From an uncultured Gallionellaceae bacterium (GTDB taxonomy: Bacteria; Pseudomonadota; Gammaproteobacteria; Burkholderiales; Gallionellaceae), in the NCBI GenBank assembly GCA_903847155.1, contig CAINCU010000068.1, positions 1 to 50,282 of the forward strand: DNA of 50,282 nucleotides, read 5' to 3'. Of the stretch, positions 6,312-40,845 are shown one piece after another (the first letter of the stretch is position 1; the number at the start of each line of letters is the position of its first letter). Under the pieces are notes generated by a model. The model worked only from the letters and a program-made list of their open reading frames with translations. It was not told where the DNA came from and did not search any database. Both the position numbers and the translations under genes were made by a program.

Positions 6312-6390
6312 AATGAATGGGCGCCGTTGAATCTTTGACCACACTCCCGAGCCTGGCCGACTGAGTCGGTCGCAGCGCCCCTCGGGAGGG
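6312..6390 (-). promoter_or_regulatory. SAH riboswitch upstream of ahcY
   Basis: The minus-strand leader reads CCGAGGGGCGCTGCGACC, a short stem-loop, CCAGGCTCGG and then CAACGGCGCCC. It matches the SAH riboswitch core in order: CCGAG pairs with CTCGG, GGGGCGCTGCGACC is the binding core, and CAACGGCGCCC closes the pseudoknot by pairing with the GGGGCGC segment. Known members are ON switches placed in front of ahcY, metH or metF. It ends about 27 bases before the ahcY start, so it may control ribosome access. The call rests on sequence and pairing seen by eye. Confidence 0.92.
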
Positions 6391-8566: not shown

Positions 8567-9435
8567 TGTTGGTACGTTTCGGCGTTTTTATTTTGTGGTT
8601 GATTCATTTCCTGCCGTTTCGCGTCATCGTGGCTATAGGCAACGGACTGGGCATGCTGCTGTTTCTGCTGGCGGCGGAACGGCGCAAGGTAGGCAATATC
8701 AATTTGAAACTGTGCTTTCCCGAGATGAGCGATGCAGCGCGCAAGCAATTGCTGCGTGAGAATTTCAAGATGTTCACGCGCAGCCTGGTCGAGCGCAGCG
8801 TTCTGTGGTGGGCTAGTGCCGAACGTATCAACCGCCTGATTCGCGTCGAGGGTGTGGAACATTTTGCAGCGATCAAAGGCAAGCCCGCCATTTTGCTCAC
8901 GCCGCATTTCGTCGGCATGGATGCGGGCGGACAGTGGGTGGCGCAACACACCGACACGGTATGCATGTATGCCAACCAGAAGAATATGTATTTGACCGAG
9001 CTGCTGTTGAAGAAGCGTGCGCGCTTCCGCCACCAGCATCTGTATTCGCGCCAGCAAGGTCTGCGCCCCATCCTCAAGGGCATGCGCGCGAACATGCCGT
9101 TCGTTTATCCGCCGGATCAGGATCAGGGCGTGAAGGACGGCGCGTTCATTCCCTTCTTCGGCGTGCCTGCAGCGACCATGACTTCGGTGCCGCGCATCGC
9201 GCAGATGACCGGCGCGCAAGTCGTGCCGAGCATCACGCGCGTGTTGCCCGGCGGCGCGGGCTATGTGCTGACGTTTTATCCGGCATGGGAAAACTTTCCG
9301 AGCGGTGACGACATCGCCGATACGCGCCGTGTGAATGCGTTCATCGAAGACCGTGCGCGCGAAATGCCGGAACAATATTTCTGGCTGCATAAACGGTTCA
9401 AGACGCGCCCCGAAGGTGAAGCGAAGTTTTATTAA
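8566..9435 (+). CDS. LpxL/LpxM-family acyltransferase (second copy)
   Basis: A 289-residue relative of the upstream protein with an N-terminal anchor (FGVFILWLIHFLPFRVIVAIG), RRKVGNINLKLCFPEMS typical of LpxL/HtrB, the catalytic box HFVGMD (HX4D) and YPPDQDQGVKDGAFIPFFGVPA. Its ATG at 8566-8568 shares bases with the upstream TAA, so translation is coupled. The pair probably adds the two secondary acyl chains of lipid A, one each. That division of labour is inferred from pairing, not shown. The longer frame opening at 8275 lies inside the upstream gene and is rejected. Confidence 0.88.
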   Translation: MLVRFGVFILWLIHFLPFRVIVAIGNGLGMLLFLLAAERRKVGNINLKLCFPEMSDAARKQLLRENFKMFTRSLVERSVLWWASAERINRLIRVEGVEHFAAIKGKPAILLTPHFVGMDAGGQWVAQHTDTVCMYANQKNMYLTELLLKKRARFRHQHLYSRQQGLRPILKGMRANMPFVYPPDQDQGVKDGAFIPFFGVPAATMTSVPRIAQMTGAQVVPSITRVLPGGAGYVLTFYPAWENFPSGDDIADTRRVNAFIEDRAREMPEQYFWLHKRFKTRPEGEAKFY

Positions 9436-9445
9436 TACGTACCTT

Positions 9446-9512
9446 GTTCGCAAGCCAATAGGGACGGGAATCTCCGTGATATGCATAGTGCAGATCGCCT
9501 ATTGACGCGGCT
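9446..9512. repeat. Dispersed palindromic repeat, copy A
   Basis: Left arm GCCAATAGGGACGGGAATCT (9454-9473, degenerate) and right arm AGATCGCCTATTGACGCGGC (9492-9511) flank a short centre in the acyltransferase-ubiD gap. Its layout (CGCAAGCCAATA... then TATTGACG) matches copy E at 27061-27135. Confidence 0.75.
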
Positions 9513-9564
9513 TCCCGCGAAGATGTGTTTTGAAAATGATATTTTCGGCAAAGGAAAAATCAAA

Positions 9565-11028
9565 ATGAAATATCACGACCTGCGCGATTTCATCGCACAA
9601 CTGGAAAAAATCGGCGAACTCAAACGCGTCACCGCGCCGGTCTCCACGCATCTGGAAATGACCGAGATTTGCGATCGCGTGCTGCGCGCACAAGGTCCGG
9701 CGCTGTTGTTCGAAAATGTGGTCGGACACAATATGCCGGTGCTGGCCAACCTGTTCGGTACGCCACGCCGCGTGGCACTGGGCATGGGCGAGGAGAATGT
9801 CAGCGCGTTGCGCGAAGTGGGCAAATTGCTGGCCTACCTGAAAGAACCGGAGCCGCCCAAAGGACTGAAAGATGCGTGGGACAAATGGCCGATTTTGAAG
9901 CAGGTGCTCACCATGTCGCCCAAGGTGTTGTCGAGTGCGCCGTGTCAGGAGATTGTGTGGGAAGGCAACGATGTTGATCTGAGCAAACTGCCGATCCAGC
10001 ATTGCTGGCCGAGCGATGTCGCGCCGCTGATCACCTGGGGTTTGGTGGTGACGCGCGGGCCGAACAAGACGCGGCAGAACCTCGGCATCTATCGCCAGCA
10101 AGTGATTGCGCCGAACAAAGTCATCATGCGCTGGCTGGCGCATCGAGGCGGTGCGCTGGATTTTCGCGATCACTGCGAAAAAAATCCGAGGCAACCGTTT
10201 CCAATCGCAGTGGTGATAGGTGCCGATCCGGCGACGATATTGGCTGCGGTCACACCCGTGCCGGATAGTTTGAGTGAATACCAATTCGCCGGATTATTGC
10301 GCGGTAGTAAGACCGAATTGGTTAAGTGCATCGGCAGTGACTTGCAAGTTCCTGCGTCAAGCGAGATCGTGCTGGAAGGCGTGATCCATCCCGGCGAGAC
10401 CGCGCTGGAAGGGCCGTATGGCGACCATACCGGCTACTACAACGAGCAGGACAAATTTCCGGTGTTCACCATCCAGCGCATCACCATGCGCCGTGATCCG
10501 ATCTACCATTCCACTTACACCGGCAAGCCGCCCGATGAACCGGCTATGTTGGGCGTAGCGCTGAACGAAGTGTTCGTGCCGCTGCTGCAAAAACAATTCC
10601 CCGAAATCGCCGATTTTTATCTGCCGCCGGAAGGTTGCTCGTATCGCATGGCAGTGGTGAGCATCAAGAAGCAATATGCCGGACACGCCAAGCGCGTGAT
10701 GTTCGGCATCTGGAGTTTCCTGCGCCAGTTCATGTACACCAAATTTATCATCGTGGTGGATGACGACATCAACGTGCGCGATTGGAAAGAAGTGATGTGG
10801 GCGATCACCACACGCATGGACCCGGTGCGCGACACGCTGCTGGTTCCGAACACGCCGATCGATTACCTCGACTTCGCCAGTCCGGTGTCAGGCTTGGGCG
10901 GCAAGATGGGCTTGGATGCCACCAACAAATGGCCGGGTGAAACACAACGCGAATGGGGTACGCCGATAGTGATGGATGCTGCGGTGAAAGCGAAGGTGGA
11001 TGCGATGTGGGGCGAGTTGGGGTTGTGA
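9565..11028 (+). CDS. ubiD: 4-hydroxy-3-polyprenylbenzoate decarboxylase
   Basis: A 487-residue UbiD-family decarboxylase. It removes the ring carboxyl of the polyprenyl-hydroxybenzoate intermediate of ubiquinone synthesis, using prenylated FMN made by UbiX. Recognisable stretches are [20 protein letters not shown] at the N-terminus, [18 protein letters not shown]-like substrate region ([12 protein letters not shown]), the ExxxR/E-rich catalytic part [16 protein letters not shown], and the C-terminal [12 protein letters not shown]. The start at 9565 has AAGGA seven bases upstream. A frame extending to 9481 begins inside a dispersed repeat and is not used. No ubiX is nearby. Confidence 0.95.
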
Positions 11029-11043
11029 GTTCGAACCCGTATT

Positions 11044-11115
11044 GTTTCGCAAGCCCCGTCAATAGGCAATCTGCATAAACCATCGCGTGAAGAATGCCTA
11101 TTGACGGGCATCTTC
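11044..11115. repeat. Dispersed palindromic repeat, copy B
   Basis: CCCGTCAATAGGCAATCTGC (from 11055) and GAATGCCTATTGACGGGCAT (from 11092) form a near-perfect long inverted repeat between the convergent ubiD and dacB genes. In RNA from either strand it would form a long hairpin, so it could serve as a shared terminator or block. Confidence 0.85.
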
Positions 11116-11149
11116 AGATAGGTCGTGTTTAAAAAATACGCTACCTAAC

Positions 11150-25217: not shown

Positions 25218-25237
25218 CGACCGTTCAAGCTGTCGTT

Positions 25238-25267
25238 ATGCAGATCGCCTATTGACGGGCGTGTGCG
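25238..25267. repeat. Dispersed palindromic repeat, copy C (single arm)
   Basis: ATGCAGATCGCCTATTGACG and the following GGCGTGTGCG match the right arm of copy E. No left arm is seen, so this is a half element within the prfA-prmC insert. Confidence 0.7.
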
Positions 25268-25307
25268 TGGTTGTTGCCGACTTGCCTCGAAGAGGCTCTT
25301 GCACCCT

Positions 25308-25478
25308 ATGGGTGTCGGCTTTACAACCATGGCCTACCCCTTGCGGGTGTTCGGTTACGTCAGACGTGGCGTGTTGGTTGTGGCGGCGTTGCTTGGTGGG
25401 AATGATGTGATGAATGGTTTGTTTGGGCGAAGCAAATTCGATGCGGCGAACAATACTGAAGAAAGGTTGGCGGCATGA
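25308..25478 (+). CDS. Doubtful small ORF ahead of the secreted-protein gene
   Basis: A frame whose later ATGs (25308 and 25329) give 50-56 residues with a hydrophobic middle (GVLVVAALLGGNDVMNG). It ends in ATGA overlapping the next gene's start at 25475, which hints at coupling. The frame extends upstream through repeat copy C, so any true N-terminus is lost or recent. No family is recognised. Confidence 0.25.
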   Translation: MGVGFTTMAYPLRVFGYVRRGVLVVAALLGGNDVMNGLFGRSKFDAANNTEERLAA

Positions 25479-25877: not shown

Positions 25878-26837
25878 ATGACTGTAAGCATGCAACGCGA
25901 CATCTCATCTCTCCTGATGCAAGACAGAGCTACGCTGGAAGCCGCGTTAGGCTTGGATTTCAGCACGGCGCGCATCGAGGTGCAGTCTTTGTTGCAGCAT
26001 GTTCTGCACGTGCCGCGCGCTTATCTGTTGGCGCATCCAGAGCAGGCGCTGAGTGAAACTCAACAAGACGCTTATAAAGTTCTGCTGCAACGCCGCATAC
26101 GCGGTGAGCCGATTGCGCATTTGCTGGAGGAGCGCGAGTTCTTCGGGTTGAGTTTCAAGGTTACGGTGGATACCTTGATTCCGCGACCGGAGACGGAGTT
26201 GCTGGTGGAATTGGCGTTGCAACGCATTCCCTCACTCCAACCCTCTGATGGAACAACTAGCCATTCGACTAGGCTGTCCAAAAACGCCAGCCAAGTCGCT
26301 GGTTATCCCAAAGGGAGAGTGGGCAAGTTCCGTGTTCTCGATCTCGGCACAGGTACTGGTGCAATCGCTTTATCCATCGCGCATACGAGGATGGATGTGG
26401 AGGTGCTGGCGGTGGATGCATCGGCAACGGCTTTGCAGGTGGCGCGCGAAAATGCGCAGCGCTTGGGTGCGTGCAACGTGAGCTTCTTGCACAGCGACTG
26501 GTTTTCCGCCCTCGAAGCCCAACGCTTCGATCTCATCGTTTCCAATCCGCCGTATATCGCGACAGACGATGTGCATCTCTCGCAGGGTGATGTGCGCTTT
26601 GAACCTTTGTCTGCCTTGGTTTCCGGTGTGGATGGGTTGGATGATATTCGGCGCATTATTCAGGCTGCGCCGCATTATCTATCTGCAAACGGTTGGTTGC
26701 TGCTGGAGCACGGTTACGACCAAGCGCAGCTGGTGCGAGATTTGTTGGAGCAAAACGGATTCAGTGAAGTTTTTTCAGAAAAAGATATAGCGGGTATAGA
26801 ACGGGTGAGCGGCGGGTGTTTGCATCCAGGCCAATAA
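25878..26837 (+). CDS. prmC: Release-factor glutamine methyltransferase, with insertion
   Basis: A 319-residue SAM-dependent N5-glutamine methyltransferase that modifies the GGQ glutamine of RF1 and RF2. The N-terminal helical domain is followed by IPRPETELLVE, the SAM loop VLDLGTGTGAIALSIA and the catalytic NPPY (IVSNPPYIA). The protein is about 35-40 residues longer than usual because about 32 residues (about 117-149) separate RIP from FRVLDLGTG, where relatives have only a few. That stretch is encoded by a palindromic repeat. The stop TAA (26835-26837) lies in the left arm of repeat copy D, so the last residues may also be altered. All catalytic motifs are intact, so activity is plausible. 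Confidence 0.93.
   Translation: MTVSMQRDISSLLMQDRATLEAALGLDFSTARIEVQSLLQHVLHVPRAYLLAHPEQALSETQQDAYKVLLQRRIRGEPIAHLLEEREFFGLSFKVTVDTLIPRPETELLVELALQRIPSLQPSDGTTSHSTRLSKNASQVAGYPKGRVGKFRVLDLGTGTGAIALSIAHTRMDVEVLAVDASATALQVARENAQRLGACNVSFLHSDWFSALEAQRFDLIVSNPPYIATDDVHLSQGDVRFEPLSALVSGVDGLDDIRRIIQAAPHYLSANGWLLLEHGYDQAQLVRDLLEQNGFSEVFSEKDIAGIERVSGGCLHPGQ
26227..26324 (+). repeat. In-frame palindromic element inside prmC
   Basis: The segment begins TCCCTCACTCCAACCCTCT (26228-26246) and ends CCCAAAGGGAGAGTGGGC (26307-26324), imperfectly complementary ends of the CCCTC.../...GAGGG type seen in many intergenic repeats. Inner hairpins include CTAGCC/GGCTGT-like (26258-26277) and CCAGC-CAAGTC-GCTGG (26287-26302). 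It keeps the reading frame and encodes about 32 residues rich in Ser, Thr, Gly and Lys. Confidence 0.7.
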
Positions 26838-27033: not shown

Positions 27034-27060
27034 GCCCGGAAGAATATCTAAAAGATGGCC

Positions 27061-27135
27061 TTGCCCGCAAGCCAATAAATACGGGCATCTCCACGATGCG
27101 CCAAGTATAGATCGCCTATTGACGGGCGTGTGCGG
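27061..27135. repeat. Dispersed palindromic repeat, copy E
   Basis: CGCAAGCCAATAAATACGGG leads into CATCTCC, then AGATCGCCTATTGACGGGCG and TGTGCGG. It lies between the convergent prmC and argH and has the same layout as copy A. Confidence 0.8.
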
Positions 27136-27152
27136 GGCAGGGGGTTAAAAAA

Positions 27153-35419: not shown

Positions 35420-36658
35420 ATGGAATCCTCTGCCTCTCTGGAACTCGCAAAACACACTCTCCTGATATTCGGCATCATCCTCGGCATCGGAACCTTTTCC
35501 GGCTTGCTCGCGCGCATGGTAAAAGTGCCTGATGTCGTGGTATTCCTGCTGATCGGCATGCTGATCGGCCCCGGTGTATTGGGTTTGGTTAACATTTCGG
35601 CAGATTCGACCGTAAACCAATTAATCCTGATTTTCGGTTCCAGCTACATCCTGTTCGACGGTGGCGCATCGATCAAGCTCAAAGTGTTGAAAGAAGTGTG
35701 GATCACACTGCTGGTGATCGCCACCATCGGCGTGCTGATTACCGCCGCCATCACCGGTGCGGCTGCATACTATTTCCTTGGCGTGCCTGTCATCGTGGCG
35801 CTGTTGCTGGGCGCAACATTAGCTTCCACCGACCCGGCGACACTGGTTCCGGTATTCAAACAAGTCAAAATCAAAGAGCGTGTGGCGCAGACCGTGATGA
35901 GCGAATCTGCGTTCAATGACGCGATGGGCGCCATCGTCACCTTCACCATCCTTGGGGTAGCAATGGGTTCGGGAGAGTTCTCGGCGAGCGCCGCAGTTGC
36001 GGGATTGCTCAAACAAGCCGTGATCGGAATCGTCATCGGCGGCGCGCTTGGTTATCTGGCTGCGGTGTTGATCGCGCATGAGAAATATAGTTTCCTGCAT
36101 GAGTTCGCCCCGGTGGTCACGCTGATGGCGGTAATCGGCGCCTACATGAGCGCGGACGGATTACAATCCAGCGGCTTCATGGCCGTGTTCGTGTTCGGCA
36201 TTATGCTGGGCAACGTCGAATCACTCGGTTTCAAGCGCACCGAAAACGAAAACCATCAGTTGGAAGAATATGTAATGACCACCGCATTCATCATGCGCAT
36301 GTTCATCTTCATCCTGCTCGGCACGCAAGTGAACTTCACCCTGATGAACCAATACCTGTGGTCGGGCATTGGCATCGTGGTCGTGTTCATGCTGGTCGCG
36401 CGTCCCGTCACCGTGTTCCTGTGTGCACTGCCGGACCGCCGCGCCAAATGGAGTTTGAAGGAAATGCTGTTCATGTGCTGGACGCGCGAAACCGGCGTCA
36501 TCCCCGGCGCACTGGCCGGCATGCTGGTCGGCATGAAAGCGCCGGGCGCACAGATCATCGCCTCGGTTACCTTCATCGCGATTCTGATGACCATCCTGAT
36601 TCAGGCCACCACTACCAAGTGGCTGGCGAAGAAGCTGGATTTGCTGGTAGAGGAATAA
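35420..36658 (+). CDS. CPA1-type cation:proton antiporter
   Basis: A 412-residue inner-membrane protein with about 12 hydrophobic segments. It is predicted to exchange Na+ or K+ for protons. Family features are VVVFLLIGMLIGPGVLGLV near the N-terminus, FGSSYILFDGGASIK, the unwound-helix motif LASTDPATLVPVF and the ion-binding SESAFNDAMGAIVTF (ND pair). No regulatory RCK domain is attached. Which cation it carries cannot be read from sequence. It is transcribed alone and converges with modA across repeat copy G. Confidence 0.9.
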   Translation: MESSASLELAKHTLLIFGIILGIGTFSGLLARMVKVPDVVVFLLIGMLIGPGVLGLVNISADSTVNQLILIFGSSYILFDGGASIKLKVLKEVWITLLVIATIGVLITAAITGAAAYYFLGVPVIVALLLGATLASTDPATLVPVFKQVKIKERVAQTVMSESAFNDAMGAIVTFTILGVAMGSGEFSASAAVAGLLKQAVIGIVIGGALGYLAAVLIAHEKYSFLHEFAPVVTLMAVIGAYMSADGLQSSGFMAVFVFGIMLGNVESLGFKRTENENHQLEEYVMTTAFIMRMFIFILLGTQVNFTLMNQYLWSGIGIVVVFMLVARPVTVFLCALPDRRAKWSLKEMLFMCWTRETGVIPGALAGMLVGMKAPGAQIIASVTFIAILMTILIQATTTKWLAKKLDLLVEE

Positions 36659-36726
36659 GTTCAAGAGCGCCCGGATTTTGCAGTATGTCTCCGGGCATGT
36701 CTCTCTCCTATTTGAACTGGCCGGGA

Positions 36727-36837
36727 ACGCCCGTCAATAGGCAATCTGCATGCATGGTCTATGGAGATGGCCGTCAATAGGCATTCCACAAGGCATGCGC
36801 GTGGGCCATTGGACTATGGATTGCCTGCGACGGGCTT
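36727..36837. repeat. Dispersed palindromic repeat, copy G (compound)
   Basis: Two left arms in tandem, GCCCGTCAATAGGCAATCTG (from 36729) and GATGGCCGTCAATAGGCATT (from 36766), are followed by an altered right arm ATTGCCTGCGACGGGC (36820-36835). It fills the gap between the convergent antiporter and modA genes. Confidence 0.8.
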
Positions 36838-36887
36838 AACGCGAATTTGATGCAAAGTCCTATTCACATAGGTGAAGCAAGGGAATC

Positions 36888-37658
36888 TCACTGCACCTCG
36901 TACCCGAACCCGCGCATCACCGCCCTTGCATTCTCACTTTTCAAAAACTCCAAAAACTCTTTCGCCGCCAATTTGTCTTTCGCACCGCTCAACAGCACCG
37001 CGCTCTGCCGGATCGGCTTATGCATCTCGGGCGGAGCTATCCACCATGAACCAGAAGTCACCTTGCCGTCGCGCATCACCTGTGACAGCGCGATGAACGC
37101 CAGATCGGCCTTTTCGCTCGCCGCCAGTTGGTAGGTCTCGGTGACGCTCTCGCCTTTGCTCAGTTTTTCCTGAATCGAATTCCACATCGTCAACTTGGTC
37201 AGCGTCTCTTTCGCCGCCACGCCGTATGGCGAGTAGCGCGGATTGGCGATGGCCAGCGTGCTGAAATTGCCCTTGTTCAGCACTGACGCTTTTTCATCCA
37301 CCACGCAAGGTTGGTCGCTCCACAACACCAGCCGCCCGGTGGCATACACAAAGCGCGAACCGCCGACCGCAAAACCATCCAGCATCAACTGCTTCGGCAT
37401 CTCTTCGTCCGAAGCCAGGAACACGTCGAATGCCGCACCTTTCCTGATCTGCGCATACAACTTGCCACTGGCACCCGGCGTGACCTTCAGCGTGTGCCCG
37501 CTCTCCTTCTGGAACAGCGGCGCAATGCGCTCCATTGGCGTCGCGAAATCCGCCGCCACCGCCACACTCACCTCGCCCGCCCACACCGGCGAACTCAGCA
37601 GTCCGTAACTCAGCAAGACAGCAGCGACAAAACCGCGCAATGAATTATGCATTTTCAA
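36888..37658 (-). CDS. modA: Molybdate ABC transporter substrate-binding protein
   Basis: A 256-residue periplasmic binding protein with a signal peptide ending in SSPVWA|G. The ModA pattern runs from EVSVAVAADFATPMERIAPL through TPGASGKLYAQIRKGAAFDV and FLASDEEMPKQL to LAIANPRYSPYG. It should capture molybdate (or tungstate). modB and modC, which normally follow, are absent, and the downstream sequence is repeat copy G and the convergent antiporter. It either works with a permease encoded elsewhere or is a specialised relative. Start at 37658 or the ATG two codons on. Confidence 0.9.
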   Translation of the reverse strand: MKMHNSLRGFVAAVLLSYGLLSSPVWAGEVSVAVAADFATPMERIAPLFQKESGHTLKVTPGASGKLYAQIRKGAAFDVFLASDEEMPKQLMLDGFAVGGSRFVYATGRLVLWSDQPCVVDEKASVLNKGNFSTLAIANPRYSPYGVAAKETLTKLTMWNSIQEKLSKGESVTETYQLAASEKADLAFIALSQVMRDGKVTSGSWWIAPPEMHKPIRQSAVLLSGAKDKLAAKEFLEFLKSENARAVMRGFGYEVQ

Positions 37659-37710
37659 CTCCCAACCAGAATGGGTGCAATGATAACAAGGTAGATGGGG
37701 GACGGCGAAA

Positions 37711-37807
37711 AGGATATAGGCCGATTGGCATAATGCTGGTTCGTGAAGATGCCCGTCAATAGGTGCTCTAAATTGCTATATTATTGGAGATGGCCGTATT
37801 CAGGGCG
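37711..37807. repeat. Dispersed palindromic repeat, copy H
   Basis: GGATATAGGCCGATTGGCAT (37712-37731), then GAAGATGCCCGTCAATAGGT (37745-37764), and a second partial arm GGAGATGGCCGTATTCAGGG (37786-37805). It lies upstream of modA, so it could carry or disturb the modA promoter. Confidence 0.7.
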
Positions 37808-37854
37808 TTTACATGCAGGTGCATTTTGAGTTCAGCAAAACAGGGGGTGGCCGT

Positions 37855-38076
37855 TCATTCCCCCATGCCATCCGACATATCGATCAGGCAGAGTTGTTGC
37901 ATCAGTTGCAGGACGACCAAGCCCTGTTCCGGGTCTAGCGTGTTGCCCAATTCCGTCAGCATTTGGTTGGCATAGCCCATGTCTGCTTCCATGCGCTGCA
38001 GGTCGACTTCAACATTGCGCTTCTTCGCCATTGTTTTCAATTTTTCGAGCAATTTCACTGTTACCGGATCGAGCAT
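37855..38076 (-). CDS. Small hypothetical protein
   Basis: A 73-residue, mostly helical cytosolic protein starting MLDPVTVKLLEKLKTMAKKR and ending IDMSDGMGE. The frame is open to 38169, but AAGG about 11 bases upstream and the simpler N-terminus favour 38076. No family is recognised. Divergent from the metalloprotease lipoprotein gene. Confidence 0.55.
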   Translation of the reverse strand: MLDPVTVKLLEKLKTMAKKRNVEVDLQRMEADMGYANQMLTELGNTLDPEQGLVVLQLMQQLCLIDMSDGMGE

Positions 38077-38217
38077 TTGCAAAACCTTTTTCTGAATTAA
38101 AGTGCATGGCATGTTGCCATGGTTAAGAAATAAATTCAAAGTTGTCGGGCATGCATTCGGTTTGCTCATGCATGATGGCGGGCATATACTTATTTCTCAT
38201 GTTTTCAGGGGAATGCC

Positions 38218-39285
38218 TTGACACTCAAATACTTGTGCATCGGAATGGTTGTGTTGCTGGTCGGTTGCAAGGGTGGCGGTAGCGAGTGGCAACAGGCCTC
38301 TGTTCCCATCGTCCAGCCCGGCACCACGGTACAGATTCGCGTGCTGCACGCCACCAATCCGCGCCTGGCGCAGATGTCGCCGGAGCAGATGCGCATCATG
38401 CTGGCTTCAGCGCAAGCGACGGTAAAGAAGAATTTCGGCGTCAATGTTGAATTCACGCAGGTTGACGAAATGGGCATTGATCAGTTGTTTGCGCAGATTC
38501 CGCCGCGTGTGCTGGCGCAGCGTAAACAATATATTTACGACTTCAAATCAGGTACTGGTGACAAGCAGAAACTGACCAACGGCATCAACGCGACGCTTAC
38601 GCAACGCGGCACGAAATTGGAGGACGGGTTTGCGTTTGCCAGGCCGTATCTGCCGGATACGCCGCCACCAAAAAGCCTGATGGAATTTTCCGGGCTGTTG
38701 TCGGATGTGATGCTGGAGCGCTTGCAGCAATGGCGCAATGTCAAAGCTGCCGATGGCGCGCCGGTACTAAATGCCTCGCCCTACAACGAATGGATTTATT
38801 GGGACACCTTGGGTTACAGCAGGCTGCCGTACGATTTGGTGATTACCAATCAACTTGTGGCGAGTGCCGAATATGTTGATGTCGATATCCATTCAGCCAT
38901 TCGCGGCGGCGTATCGGTGGGCACCACGACATTCAGCCGCAACGGTAAATTTGGCGCGTATATTTTCTGGAGCACATTTCCATTTTTGGACAATTCGGAA
39001 AACACCATGCGCTTGCGCGGCGGCGAAACGTATTCTGCGAAAGAAACCGCCGAGCTGTCCGGTGCATATCTGGCGCACGAGATTGGCCATCTGCTGTTTC
39101 AATTCGGCCATCCGTTCGGCCAAAAATCCTGTGTGATGAATCCCACCAGTATGTTGCGCTTCCGCGAGTGGTATCAGCAGGTCGACAATGCGGCATGCCC
39201 GATAGGCTGCCGCCCGGAGATGAGCGTGGGCGCTGTGTTGCCAACTTTCAATACGAACTGGCTGCGCATGGCGAGTGAGCCGTAA
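38218..39285 (+). CDS. Lipoprotein with archaemetzincin-like zinc site
   Basis: A 355-residue putative lipoprotein. A short signal ends in the lipobox LLVGC (Cys at residue 17). The zinc site is HEIGHLLFQFGH (His287, Glu288, His291, His298), followed by a CVMN Cys and a CPIGC pair about 30 residues on. This order is the archaemetzincin pattern, except that six rather than five residues separate the second and third histidines. The N-terminal 250 residues are unrecognised. TTG at 38218 is preferred because AGGGG lies six bases before it and it gives a complete signal. ATG at 38242 would leave a very short one. Substrate unknown. Confidence 0.65.
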   Translation: MTLKYLCIGMVVLLVGCKGGGSEWQQASVPIVQPGTTVQIRVLHATNPRLAQMSPEQMRIMLASAQATVKKNFGVNVEFTQVDEMGIDQLFAQIPPRVLAQRKQYIYDFKSGTGDKQKLTNGINATLTQRGTKLEDGFAFARPYLPDTPPPKSLMEFSGLLSDVMLERLQQWRNVKAADGAPVLNASPYNEWIYWDTLGYSRLPYDLVITNQLVASAEYVDVDIHSAIRGGVSVGTTTFSRNGKFGAYIFWSTFPFLDNSENTMRLRGGETYSAKETAELSGAYLAHEIGHLLFQFGHPFGQKSCVMNPTSMLRFREWYQQVDNAACPIGCRPEMSVGAVLPTFNTNWLRMASEP

Positions 39286-39380
39286 GACGGCAGTTTTTTC
39301 CCGATTCACCAACACCGAAGTATTGTCGGTGGTCTATATGTTCGCAGGCTCGCGTAGTCACTAAAATTACACATCATGAA

Positions 39381-39442
39381 GATGCCCGTCAATAGGCGAT
39401 CTTCATGCATAATATAATGCAGATCGCCTATTGACGGGCATC
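39381..39442. repeat. Dispersed palindromic repeat, copy I (perfect)
   Basis: The two 22-bp arms (39381-39402 and 39421-39442) are exact reverse complements. The left one starts GATGCCCGTCAATAGGCGAT and the right one ends CTATTGACGGGCATC. They are separated by 18 bases with an inner GCAT/ATGC. This is the best-preserved copy and defines the element. Confidence 0.95.
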
Positions 39443-39543
39443 TACAGCATGTTGGTTTTTTCGGATGGTGCATCTTCGCCTGCGCCCAATTTGCCCGCGC
39501 AGGTGTCTATAATCCCGCGTCCGCAATCATTTGAGAGCTGCGC

Positions 39544-40845
39544 ATGAAATTTATTTTTCTGATGGCGATGTCGTTGTTTTGTGTCAGCGCGCTGGCGCAG
39601 CCTATGGCTGATTCGGTGGAGTTGCCTGCGCCTTCTTCGGCCGCGCAGCGGCTGTATGCTTCGGCAAAGCCGGATCTGTTGCAGATGCGTGTGCTGTTGA
39701 AGAGCGGGCGCACACAGTCATCGGTGGGGTCGGGTTTTATGGTCGGCGACACGAATCTGGTGGTGACCAATTATCACGTGATGTCTCAAGTGGCGCTGGA
39801 ACCGGAGACTTATGTCGGCGAATACCGGGACACCAATGGCCGGCGCGGTGCGGTGGAGTTGCTGGCGGTGGATGTGCAGCATGATCTGGCGGTGGTGCGC
39901 ATTGATCACAATGGCAGCGGGTTTTTCAAGGTACCGCAAATGTTGCCGCAGTTGAAGCAGGGGCAATATCTGTATTCGCTGGGTAATCCGCTCGATCTGG
40001 GCTTCGCCATTTCGGAAGGGTCATATAACGGCATCATCAGCCGCAGTTTTTACGAGCAACTGATGTTCACCGGACCGATCAATGCGGGCATGAGCGGCGG
40101 GCCGACGGTGACGGTGTCCGGGCGCGTGGCGGGGGTGAATGTTTCGCGGCGGCTGGACGGCGAGTTGGTGAGTTTTCTGGTGCCGGTGCGCTATGTGCGC
40201 GATTTGCTGAAGAAGGTTGCCGCACAGCACCAGGCTCCGAAGAATTTCAAATTGGTGGTCGGCCAACAGTTGCTGGCGCATCAGGCGAAGATGGTGGACA
40301 GGCTGGCCAAAACGCTGCTCACTTTCAAAGAGTTGAGTCCTTACCGCACGCCGGTGTGGGAGTCGGAACAGGTGCGCTGCTGGGGTTGGTCCAATGCCAA
40401 GCAGGACAAGCCTTACGCGGTGGATGAAGTGAGTTGCGCCATGGAGTCGGCCATTTTCGTGTCGAAGCAATTGGAAACCGGACATGTTTCCATCCAGCAC
40501 AAACGCATTCAAAGCAGCGAGATGGGAACGTGGCGCTTTGCCGCGCTGGCGAGCAGTCAGTTCAAGAACCAGAACCTCGGCGGACACAAGGATTTGCGCT
40601 TTACGCCGCCGCAGTGCGTTGAACAATTTGTGAGTAACGGCAAGTTGCCGATGCGCGCCGTGCTATGCATGCACGCCTATCGCAAATTCCCCGAGTTGTA
40701 CGATTTCACTTTGCTCACTGCCAGCACCGATGCCAGCCAGATGACCTTACAAAGCCGAGTGGATGCGAGTGGCGTGTCGTATCAGAACGGACTGCGCATC
40801 GCGCGCATCTTCCTTGAGGCGATGAGCCGGGAGGCGCAGCCATGA
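39544..40845 (+). CDS. Secreted trypsin-like serine protease
   Basis: A 433-residue protein with a signal peptide (MKFIFLMAMSLFCVSALA). The chymotrypsin-fold domain (about 35-215) has the triad His78 (VTNYHVM), Asp114 (DVQHDLAVVRI) and Ser184 (NAGMSGGP), as in S1C/DegP-type proteases, but there is no PDZ domain. The C-terminal 200 residues are unrecognised and contain four or five cysteines (CWGW, SCAME, PPQCVE, LCMHAY) that could form disulfides in the periplasm. It ends in ATGA overlapping the FHA gene, so the two are co-translated. Confidence 0.85.
   Translation: MKFIFLMAMSLFCVSALAQPMADSVELPAPSSAAQRLYASAKPDLLQMRVLLKSGRTQSSVGSGFMVGDTNLVVTNYHVMSQVALEPETYVGEYRDTNGRRGAVELLAVDVQHDLAVVRIDHNGSGFFKVPQMLPQLKQGQYLYSLGNPLDLGFAISEGSYNGIISRSFYEQLMFTGPINAGMSGGPTVTVSGRVAGVNVSRRLDGELVSFLVPVRYVRDLLKKVAAQHQAPKNFKLVVGQQLLAHQAKMVDRLAKTLLTFKELSPYRTPVWESEQVRCWGWSNAKQDKPYAVDEVSCAMESAIFVSKQLETGHVSIQHKRIQSSEMGTWRFAALASSQFKNQNLGGHKDLRFTPPQCVEQFVSNGKLPMRAVLCMHAYRKFPELYDFTLLTASTDASQMTLQSRVDASGVSYQNGLRIARIFLEAMSREAQP

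Follow-up and report, generated by a model that had tools for sequence, protein, structure and literature searches.

A REPIN-like family of dispersed, mostly intergenic repeats abundant in one clade of Sideroxydans

Results

Repeat copies in the window

The window – the whole stretch of 50,282 nucleotides analysed here, contig 68 of a 3.08-Mb genome of the genus Sideroxydans – contains at 36884-39283 a gene for a solute-binding protein and a neighbouring gene, flanked by two copies of a repeat at 36710-36845 and 39363-39461. The latter, copy I (39363..39461, no strand assigned), is a full element with both halves of the same type, designated A (an AA dimer), and was recognised from a list of inverted repeats, from a sequence profile and from its predicted fold. 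Its arms at 39381-39402 and 39421-39442 are exact reverse complements separated by 18 bases, as a preliminary description of the locus had stated; with one outward base added the perfect arms in fact measure 23 bp (39380-39402 and 39421-39443). The window has 14 listed inverted repeats with a spacing of 200 or less, and copy I is the longest of them (36-nt arms, 89%); folded as single-stranded DNA it lies far below its shuffles (z = -10.6).

The motif GTCAATAGGC, with at most one mismatch, occurs 12 times in the window, a number reached by none of 100 shuffles; two of the matches (25073 and 44453, one mismatch each) lie outside any element found by the profile, which was built from copies of the repeat and applied at a cut-off of E <= 0.01. 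The profile places six elements in addition to copy I. The first, a full element on the forward strand at 9430..9536 with a left half of a second type (B) and a right half of type A (an AB dimer), stands between a lipid A acyltransferase-like gene, the last 6 bases of which it covers, stop codon included, and a ubiD-like gene. A further AA element is found at 11032..11134 (no strand assigned), and the orthologous site in the sister species G021 is also occupied. On the forward strand follow a single A half fused to a different repeated extension (GTGTGCGTGGTTGTTGCCGACTTG...) at 25233..25269 and an AB element at 27047..27150, while the copy at 36710..36845 (no strand assigned) is a compound whose two A cores, at 36733 and 36773, point the same way; a diverged AB element occupies the reverse strand at 37732..37829. 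The whole, half and compound forms of the preliminary description are thus all present, its list of related sites is correct to within a few tens of bases for the six other copies, and its statement that copies are intergenic save one on a stop codon holds for all seven elements. The exception is the site at 26829, which the profile does not report at E <= 0.01 and which by eye resembles the other half type. Predicted folds of whole copies range from moderately better than shuffles (11037, z -4.2; 9430, z -3.9) to no better (27047, z -0.78; 37732, z +1.30).

A second repeat (GTGTGCGTGGTTGTTGCCGACTTGTCGGCTTTACAACCACGGCCTACCCCTTGCGGGT, approximate) is fused to the A end in several copies, in the window at 25247-25350 and elsewhere in L001 and L186:14430-14560. 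As to the solute-binding-protein gene and its neighbour, the same pair in G021, G027, G011 and G024 lies kilobases from the genes that flank it in the window. The two window copies coincide with gene-order breakpoints, which may be chance because copies are frequent.

Copy number and distribution

The 14-base core GCCCGTCAATAGGC is present 131 times exactly in the genome, and 218 times with at most one mismatch against a single match for the reversed pattern. Together with the excess in the window (12 against 2.59 expected) these counts rule out chance or a local artefact, and dispose of the possibility, raised at the outset, that the genome holds only a few copies. Sampling of 630,282 bases gave 57 elements, or about 90 per Mb, which extrapolates to some 280 for the genome.

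Among 199 genomes searched, the exact core is abundant in only three: the window's genome (131), G017 (108) and G021 (209). The other 31 members of the genus yielded none in 29 cases and one each in G024 and G028, and outside the genus four genomes carry between 1 and 5. Bulk carriage is thus confined to three of 34 genus genomes, and in an argH tree covering 27 of the 34 these carriers form one clade with support of 100/99. A search of 84,980 GTDB species genomes (a set from which the window's own genome may be absent) with the 22-base arm returned 83 stretches, and all 80 of those listed come from the Sideroxydans assemblies STB_48 and DeMMO3_12. Under strict filters, the profile of the whole element finds matches at E <= 1e-4 in 14 of 120 relatives; 33 candidates were scored per genome, so that the carriers' counts are at least 33, while the non-carriers within the genus show between 0 and 12 matches each, all diverged. 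The simplest history is one large expansion in the ancestor of the three species over an older low-copy background. A well-matching AA copy also occurs in G058, from another genus of the same family, near a contig end (contig 24, 129-230; L356); transfer, an old copy or contamination are the alternatives.

An origin from a plasmid, phage or virus was considered and rejected: copy I gave no match to plasmids or phages at E <= 0.01 and no exact 19-mer match in IMG/VR. A known RNA family was rejected likewise. An Rfam scan of the whole window left them without a match at the gathering score, and the weak matches to animal microRNAs at 36500-39700 are implausible and reflect the hairpin alone. The same scan recovered an SAH riboswitch on the reverse strand at 6312-6389 (RF01057, 72.4 bits). 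Within the searches made, we found no literature joining Sideroxydans with repetitive extragenic palindromic or miniature inverted-repeat elements, only general papers on REPs; 10-mers of the repeat led, among the matches listed, to texts unrelated by title.

Anatomy of the element

Full copies are about 105 bp long (the profile has length 108), and 56 of 126 elements are full, spanning 108-109 columns with ends extrapolated. Each consists of two inverted halves around a variable spacer and bears a degenerate GTAG-like tag; half copies occur in addition. The consensus of 31 copies, with the better-conserved half placed on the right, reads TnnnAAAnnnnACCTTGnCnGCAAGCCAGTAAATACGGCnATCTCCATnAnnnnCATnnTGTAGATCGCCTATTGACGGGCnTTTnCnnGnGGTnGnnTTTTnn. 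The right unit is A, which with its GYAG-like tag can be written GYAG-AT-C-GCC-TATTGACG-GGC-AT; on the left stands a second A in inverted orientation, as in copy I, or the unlike B. Left units are mostly GGAG-tagged or inverted A units. Contiguous stretches of two genomes, 1,301,894 bases in all, contain 23 AA dimers, 61 AB dimers and 28 single A units. The palindromic form is therefore in the minority (23 of 112 core loci with alike arms), and the initial definition of the family by a perfect 22-bp inverted repeat has to be given up: most copies have two unlike halves, and RNAalifold finds no common pair in the 31 copies, AA and AB mixed.

The tag of the A unit is variable. Of 84 dimers in the contiguous stretches, 35 have GTAG and 20 have GCAG (together 55); of 28 singles, 14 have the former and 6 the latter (together 20). 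The left tag, counted with AA copies entered from both strands, is GGAG in 95 and GTAG in 48 of 213 cases. In the consensus a fold of seven pairs is predicted at -3.1 kcal/mol, AGAT-C-GCC with GGC-ATCT and one bulged C, and the final two tag bases are among those paired; the A unit can thus be predicted to form a small bulged-C hairpin in single-stranded DNA or RNA that begins within the tag. The pairs of this stem are kept in 80-99% of cases, G-T changes among them, and where the outer pairs vary, the usual changes on the strand shown are from G-C to G-T and from T-A to T-G (both with AA copies entered from both strands). The loop TATTGAC is conserved equally to the stem, in copies that were chosen by that very motif. 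Compensatory change in the central pairing is nowhere clear: one of 12 pairs (-16/-5, in AB copies) lies weakly above shuffles, with 76 of 2000 as high. For AA copies there is no more than a hint of a preference for an unpaired tag (10 and 100 of 2000 shuffles for the separated strands, 95 of 2000 in the unbiased stretches).

Single copies lack a partner half. Among 55 of them – many on loci fetched by way of the core itself – conservation declines ahead of the tag, although some still show remnants of a partner. A CT dinucleotide, at which the studied TnpA-REP enzymes cleave, directly precedes the tag in 9 of the 55 singles and 7 of 218 dimers, counts that are not decisive. An apparent excess of conservation in singlets over doublets was seen in the set partly fetched by the core and vanished in the unbiased one: in the contiguous stretches conservation is 0.871 for 84 doublets and 0.867 for 28 singlets, and 429 of 500 permutations give as large a difference. 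At the outside, imperfect inverted ends extend to weak T/A runs at both ends of the element. Direct repeats indicative of a target duplication did not rise above shuffles at any offset in the 56 full copies, which may be too old to show them.

Placement relative to genes

In the window and a further 400 kb (450,282 bases together), 38 of 44 elements are intergenic, three lie across gene ends and three – two of them half copies – have their midpoint in a called gene, where genes were called by a simple script based on codon usage (81-85% coding). Across two genomes, a copy lies within 250 bp of the 3' end of 124 of 1130 called genes and within 250 bp of the 5' end of 61. Forty settings comprise 26 between codirectional, 11 between convergent and 3 between divergent genes, against 112, 26 and 32 for gaps of at least 100 bp; these are plain counts.

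The junction between the lipid A acyltransferase-like and ubiD-like genes (window 9435-9565; L323-L351) is a hot spot for repeats across the genus. It is empty, with 3 to 15 bases between the genes, in 11 of 29 genomes; unrelated repeats fill others, and G024 and G029 have there a diverged compound relative of the repeat. On contig 17 of G021, at about 111,200-113,200 (L231:11200-13200), a MazE-like/PIN-type gene pair is tandemly doubled, with a copy beside each unit at alike spacing.

Orthologous sites

We took advantage of the sister species G021 to compare gene gaps with the same neighbours. Of 148 such gaps, an element is present in both genomes in 6, in the window's genome only in 2 and in G021 only in none; the sister is thus filled at 6 and empty at 2 of the 8 occupied gaps. 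The empty sites correspond to window 9430, where in G021 the stop and start codons overlap, and to C28:85772, and both are too diverged for the exact junctions to be read. By alignment of flanks, nine distinct sites in the window's genome are all filled in a sister species, two of them by another arm, and in the reverse direction one of eight sister sites is empty in the window's genome.

Across nine orthologous copies, 23 of 189 bases differ in the A unit and 54 of 108 in the spacer. Because best match served to place the A unit and no gaps were allowed in the spacer, this contrast is an upper bound, but it is also visible in most of the alignments. These nine were drawn from 11 sites after omission of window 37732 and L013, at which the sister arm differs, with the comparison row for G017 left out; at one of the nine the sister has a half copy only. 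The contrast would fit repeated conversion or selection acting on the unit. At orthologous places, replacement by recent copies is a less likely source of the conservation.

Search for a mobilising enzyme

A search of the 34 genus genomes for Y1 transposases gave 22 matches in the three carriers, corresponding to 21 genes, the surroundings of 20 of which were examined (a short fragment in G021 was left out). A copy of the repeat lies within 250 bp of 5 of the 20, compared with 178 of 1130 genes generally (P ~0.2), and hence there is no enrichment. The expectation that a transposase gene would be found flanked by the same arms was not borne out: just one of the 20, a gene of 250 amino acids in G017, has copies on both sides (at 219 and 164 bp), and these lie in a repeat-rich stretch and beyond the gene's own, unrelated GGGGACAGACC ends. 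In the other two carriers this gene has no copy within 1 kb. Common as it is to all carriers, it was considered as the transposase of the family and rejected on account of those ends. The 250-aa gene with its GGGGACAGACCACGGTTTT inverted ends is located at L162:2736-3485, L163:3965-4714 and L164:1777-2526, and in two of the three carriers its position agrees, ahead of a gene that by eye resembles one for a ribosomal protein.

In G021 and G017 we noted by eye four other families of GTAG-type repeats, each surrounding a short RAYT-type gene of its own (L166, L171-L174). Several Y1 genes by eye lie between other GTAG repeats, just as cognate RAYTs should, and such pairs do exist in the carriers. 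None of the 20 Y1 genes examined is clearly paired with the present family, which for this reason we call an apparent orphan, without a recognised RAYT of its own. Possible movers are a distant enzyme that falls below the search threshold or an enzyme that acts on several repeats.

Genes enclosed by neighbouring copies were a second place to look. Within the 1.3 Mb there are 43 such genes (42 scanned with Pfam, one assessed by eye), and the only transposase-like entries are the two called frames into which one IS110-type gene is split, on contig 17 of G021 (L229:6969-8057), 35 bp from a whole AA copy. Three of the five IS110-type matches in the carriers lie within 250 bp of a copy (35, 132 and 206 bp; L229, L374 and L377), which at the general rate of 15.8% has P ~0.03 in a small sample chosen post hoc. 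The adjacent copies are whole and lie on differing sides. ISPpu9 belongs to the IS110 family. Insertion sequences that enter REPs are known, ISPpu9 being one in the accessible part of the report on it (PMC8450116). By analogy, IS110 elements may be drawn to REPs, rather than being the mover of the Sideroxydans repeat.

Discussion

The repeat observed here, with its copy number, its dimeric anatomy, its intergenic placement, its restriction to one clade, its shared and empty sites and its conserved A unit, is in our opinion an element of the REPIN/BIME type that a RAYT probably spread by way of single-stranded DNA; we hold this reading to be the probable one with no great assurance. A RAYT/TnpA-REP transposase would have acted in trans and copied the element in single-stranded form. 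In the ancestor shared by the three Sideroxydans species its numbers would have grown to a few hundred, mostly between genes and more often near gene 3' ends. Today the repeat would be mainly inherited vertically, its mobilising enzyme having been lost, having escaped recognition or being shared with another repeat. Single-strand mobility, the involvement of a RAYT and any effect on transcripts are what we infer. Several observations count against this reading: no clearly paired RAYT was found among the Y1 genes examined, the tag is degenerate and partly paired, the loop is conserved, no clear covariation is seen and singlets equal doublets in conservation. The IS110-type genes, together with the partly paired, degenerate tag, have lowered our confidence in it.

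A critical issue is how the family compares with those already described. GTAG REPs and BIMEs, in the sections of Di Nocera et al. (2013, PMC3733652) available to us, likewise consist of short units whose tag is GTAG or a degenerate form of it (GYAG, GYRG), arranged as inverted dimers with the tags inside (the TT type of those authors), as dimers of unlike halves and as single units; they too reach high copy number, lie at gene 3' ends, touch stop codons and show degeneration of the tag. There are differences. According to the same sections most published families keep GTAG in more than 90%, whereas exact GTAG is found in fewer than half of our dimers, and their tags are unpaired, whereas the last two tag bases of the Sideroxydans repeat pair in the predicted fold. 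Set against what is described there, our repeat is also distinguished by a conserved 8-base loop, a weak bulged stem and the lack of a recognisably flanked RAYT. Many REPs have variable loops; the TATTGAC loop of the present one is conserved. A bulged stem behind GTAG, as far as the available text of PMC8266576 goes, is used by one group of TnpA-REP enzymes. The family therefore agrees with GTAG REPs in copy number, placement and arrangement and in part in tag and stem, with no cognate transposase recognised among the 20 Y1 genes examined in the carriers. It is apparently a new family of the known REP/REPIN kind, as judged against the descriptions of the 24 GTAG families in the portions of PMC3733652 at hand. 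REPINs of Pseudomonas fluorescens, as presented in the accessible part of Bertels and Rainey (2011, PMC3116915), are likewise inverted doublets of similar size (spacing classes of 71 and 110 bp), intergenic, with REPs that are better conserved than the spacers between them. In that species conservation is higher in doublets than in singlets, and every group has a RAYT of its own; neither was found for the Sideroxydans repeat.

The label of REP/MITE-like element given in the preliminary description stands on its REP side – the family is dispersed, mostly intergenic and present in high copy – and finds less support on its MITE side. A MITE would be what internal deletion has left of a DNA transposon, with imperfect inverted repeats of about 45 bases at its termini; a transposase other than a RAYT, of the DDE or IS110 type, would move it in trans. 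The near-constant length, the imperfect ends reaching the T/A runs and the long compound copies in relatives speak for such an element, as do the split IS110-type gene of G021, which lies between two neighbouring copies, and the three of five IS110-type matches close to a copy. Yet the 56 full copies show no direct repeat above shuffles at their ends and half copies start at the internal tag rather than at the outer end, two features that favour a REP over a MITE; moreover, a single IS110 gene in two frames is the only transposase-like gene among the 43 between neighbouring copies, and the copies beside IS110-type genes are whole and on differing sides, so that the genes do not sit between copy ends as in a transposon. 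We regard a MITE as unlikely.

An explanation of another sort is that of host-selected sites: the A unit, at 14-21 bases, could bind a host protein – a nucleoid protein, a gyrase-like factor or a regulator – and copies could be kept by selection for that role. Conservation of the orthologous A units, loop included, alongside spacers that are not conserved, and the persistence of copies at sites common to sister species are in line with this. The other genus members can nonetheless do without such sites, having 0 to 12 diverged matches and no more than one exact core; placement by best match in both species biases the A unit towards low divergence; and the origin of the sites by copying still requires a mechanism of mobility. 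Host-selected sites as the whole explanation therefore seem to us improbable, to much the same degree as a MITE. More improbable by far is that the copies are RNA elements, hairpins of the terminator or stabiliser type at mRNA 3' ends. The two-fold surplus at gene 3' ends, the 26 codirectional and 11 convergent settings against 3 divergent ones (as plain counts) and the strong fold of copy I would suit that role; most copies, however, are dimers of unlike halves, two of the five copies of the window that were folded as whole elements do no better than shuffles, the 31 copies share no fold, and avoidance of promoters would equally yield placement at 3' ends.

Returning to the REPIN-type reading, a bolder version of it has the family as an orphan REP population of several hundred copies, kept for long without a transposase because the host uses the A unit, stem and loop together; we think this doubtful. 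Were it true, a mobile element would in one clade have become a set of sites under selection, in the chromosome or at transcript ends. REPINs are copied, according to the available portion of PMC8049555, by a RAYT that is inherited vertically over long times. A large family of which most tested sites are shared by sister species, and for which no RAYT is recognisable, is thus a natural test of REPIN persistence: the activity of another enzyme (a different Y1 transposase, or the IS110-type genes near some copies), selection on sites and slow decay are the options. The copies described here also provide a catalogue of repeats for iron-oxidising bacteria of the Gallionellaceae type, which can serve in gene calling, strain typing and assembly.

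Two further kinds of element deserve mention. TIRYT genes, in the accessible sections of PMC3733652, have GGGGWSAS inverted ends, and the 250-aa Y1 gene of all three carriers is of such a kind; its ends are unrelated to the Sideroxydans repeat, and by eye similar N-termini occur in non-carriers. The same sections report REPs with a CGTC tag for 'S. lithotrophicus' (presumably Sideroxydans), characterised by that tag, a complementary AT at the start of the stem and a CCA tail. Like our family these are, as described there, intergenic and palindromic, and no dedicated transposase was found for them; they differ in sequence (CGTCATTCCGGC...GCCGGAATCCAG) and are separately present in the carrier genomes. 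Identity with them was considered and rejected: the core of the present repeat does contain CGTC, but AATAGGC comes next, and neither that stem nor that tail is present. At L186:11125-11252 there is a 127-bp dimer of the CGTC-tagged REP (CGTCATTCCGGCGCAGGCCGGAATCCAG), with many matches in G017 and G021.
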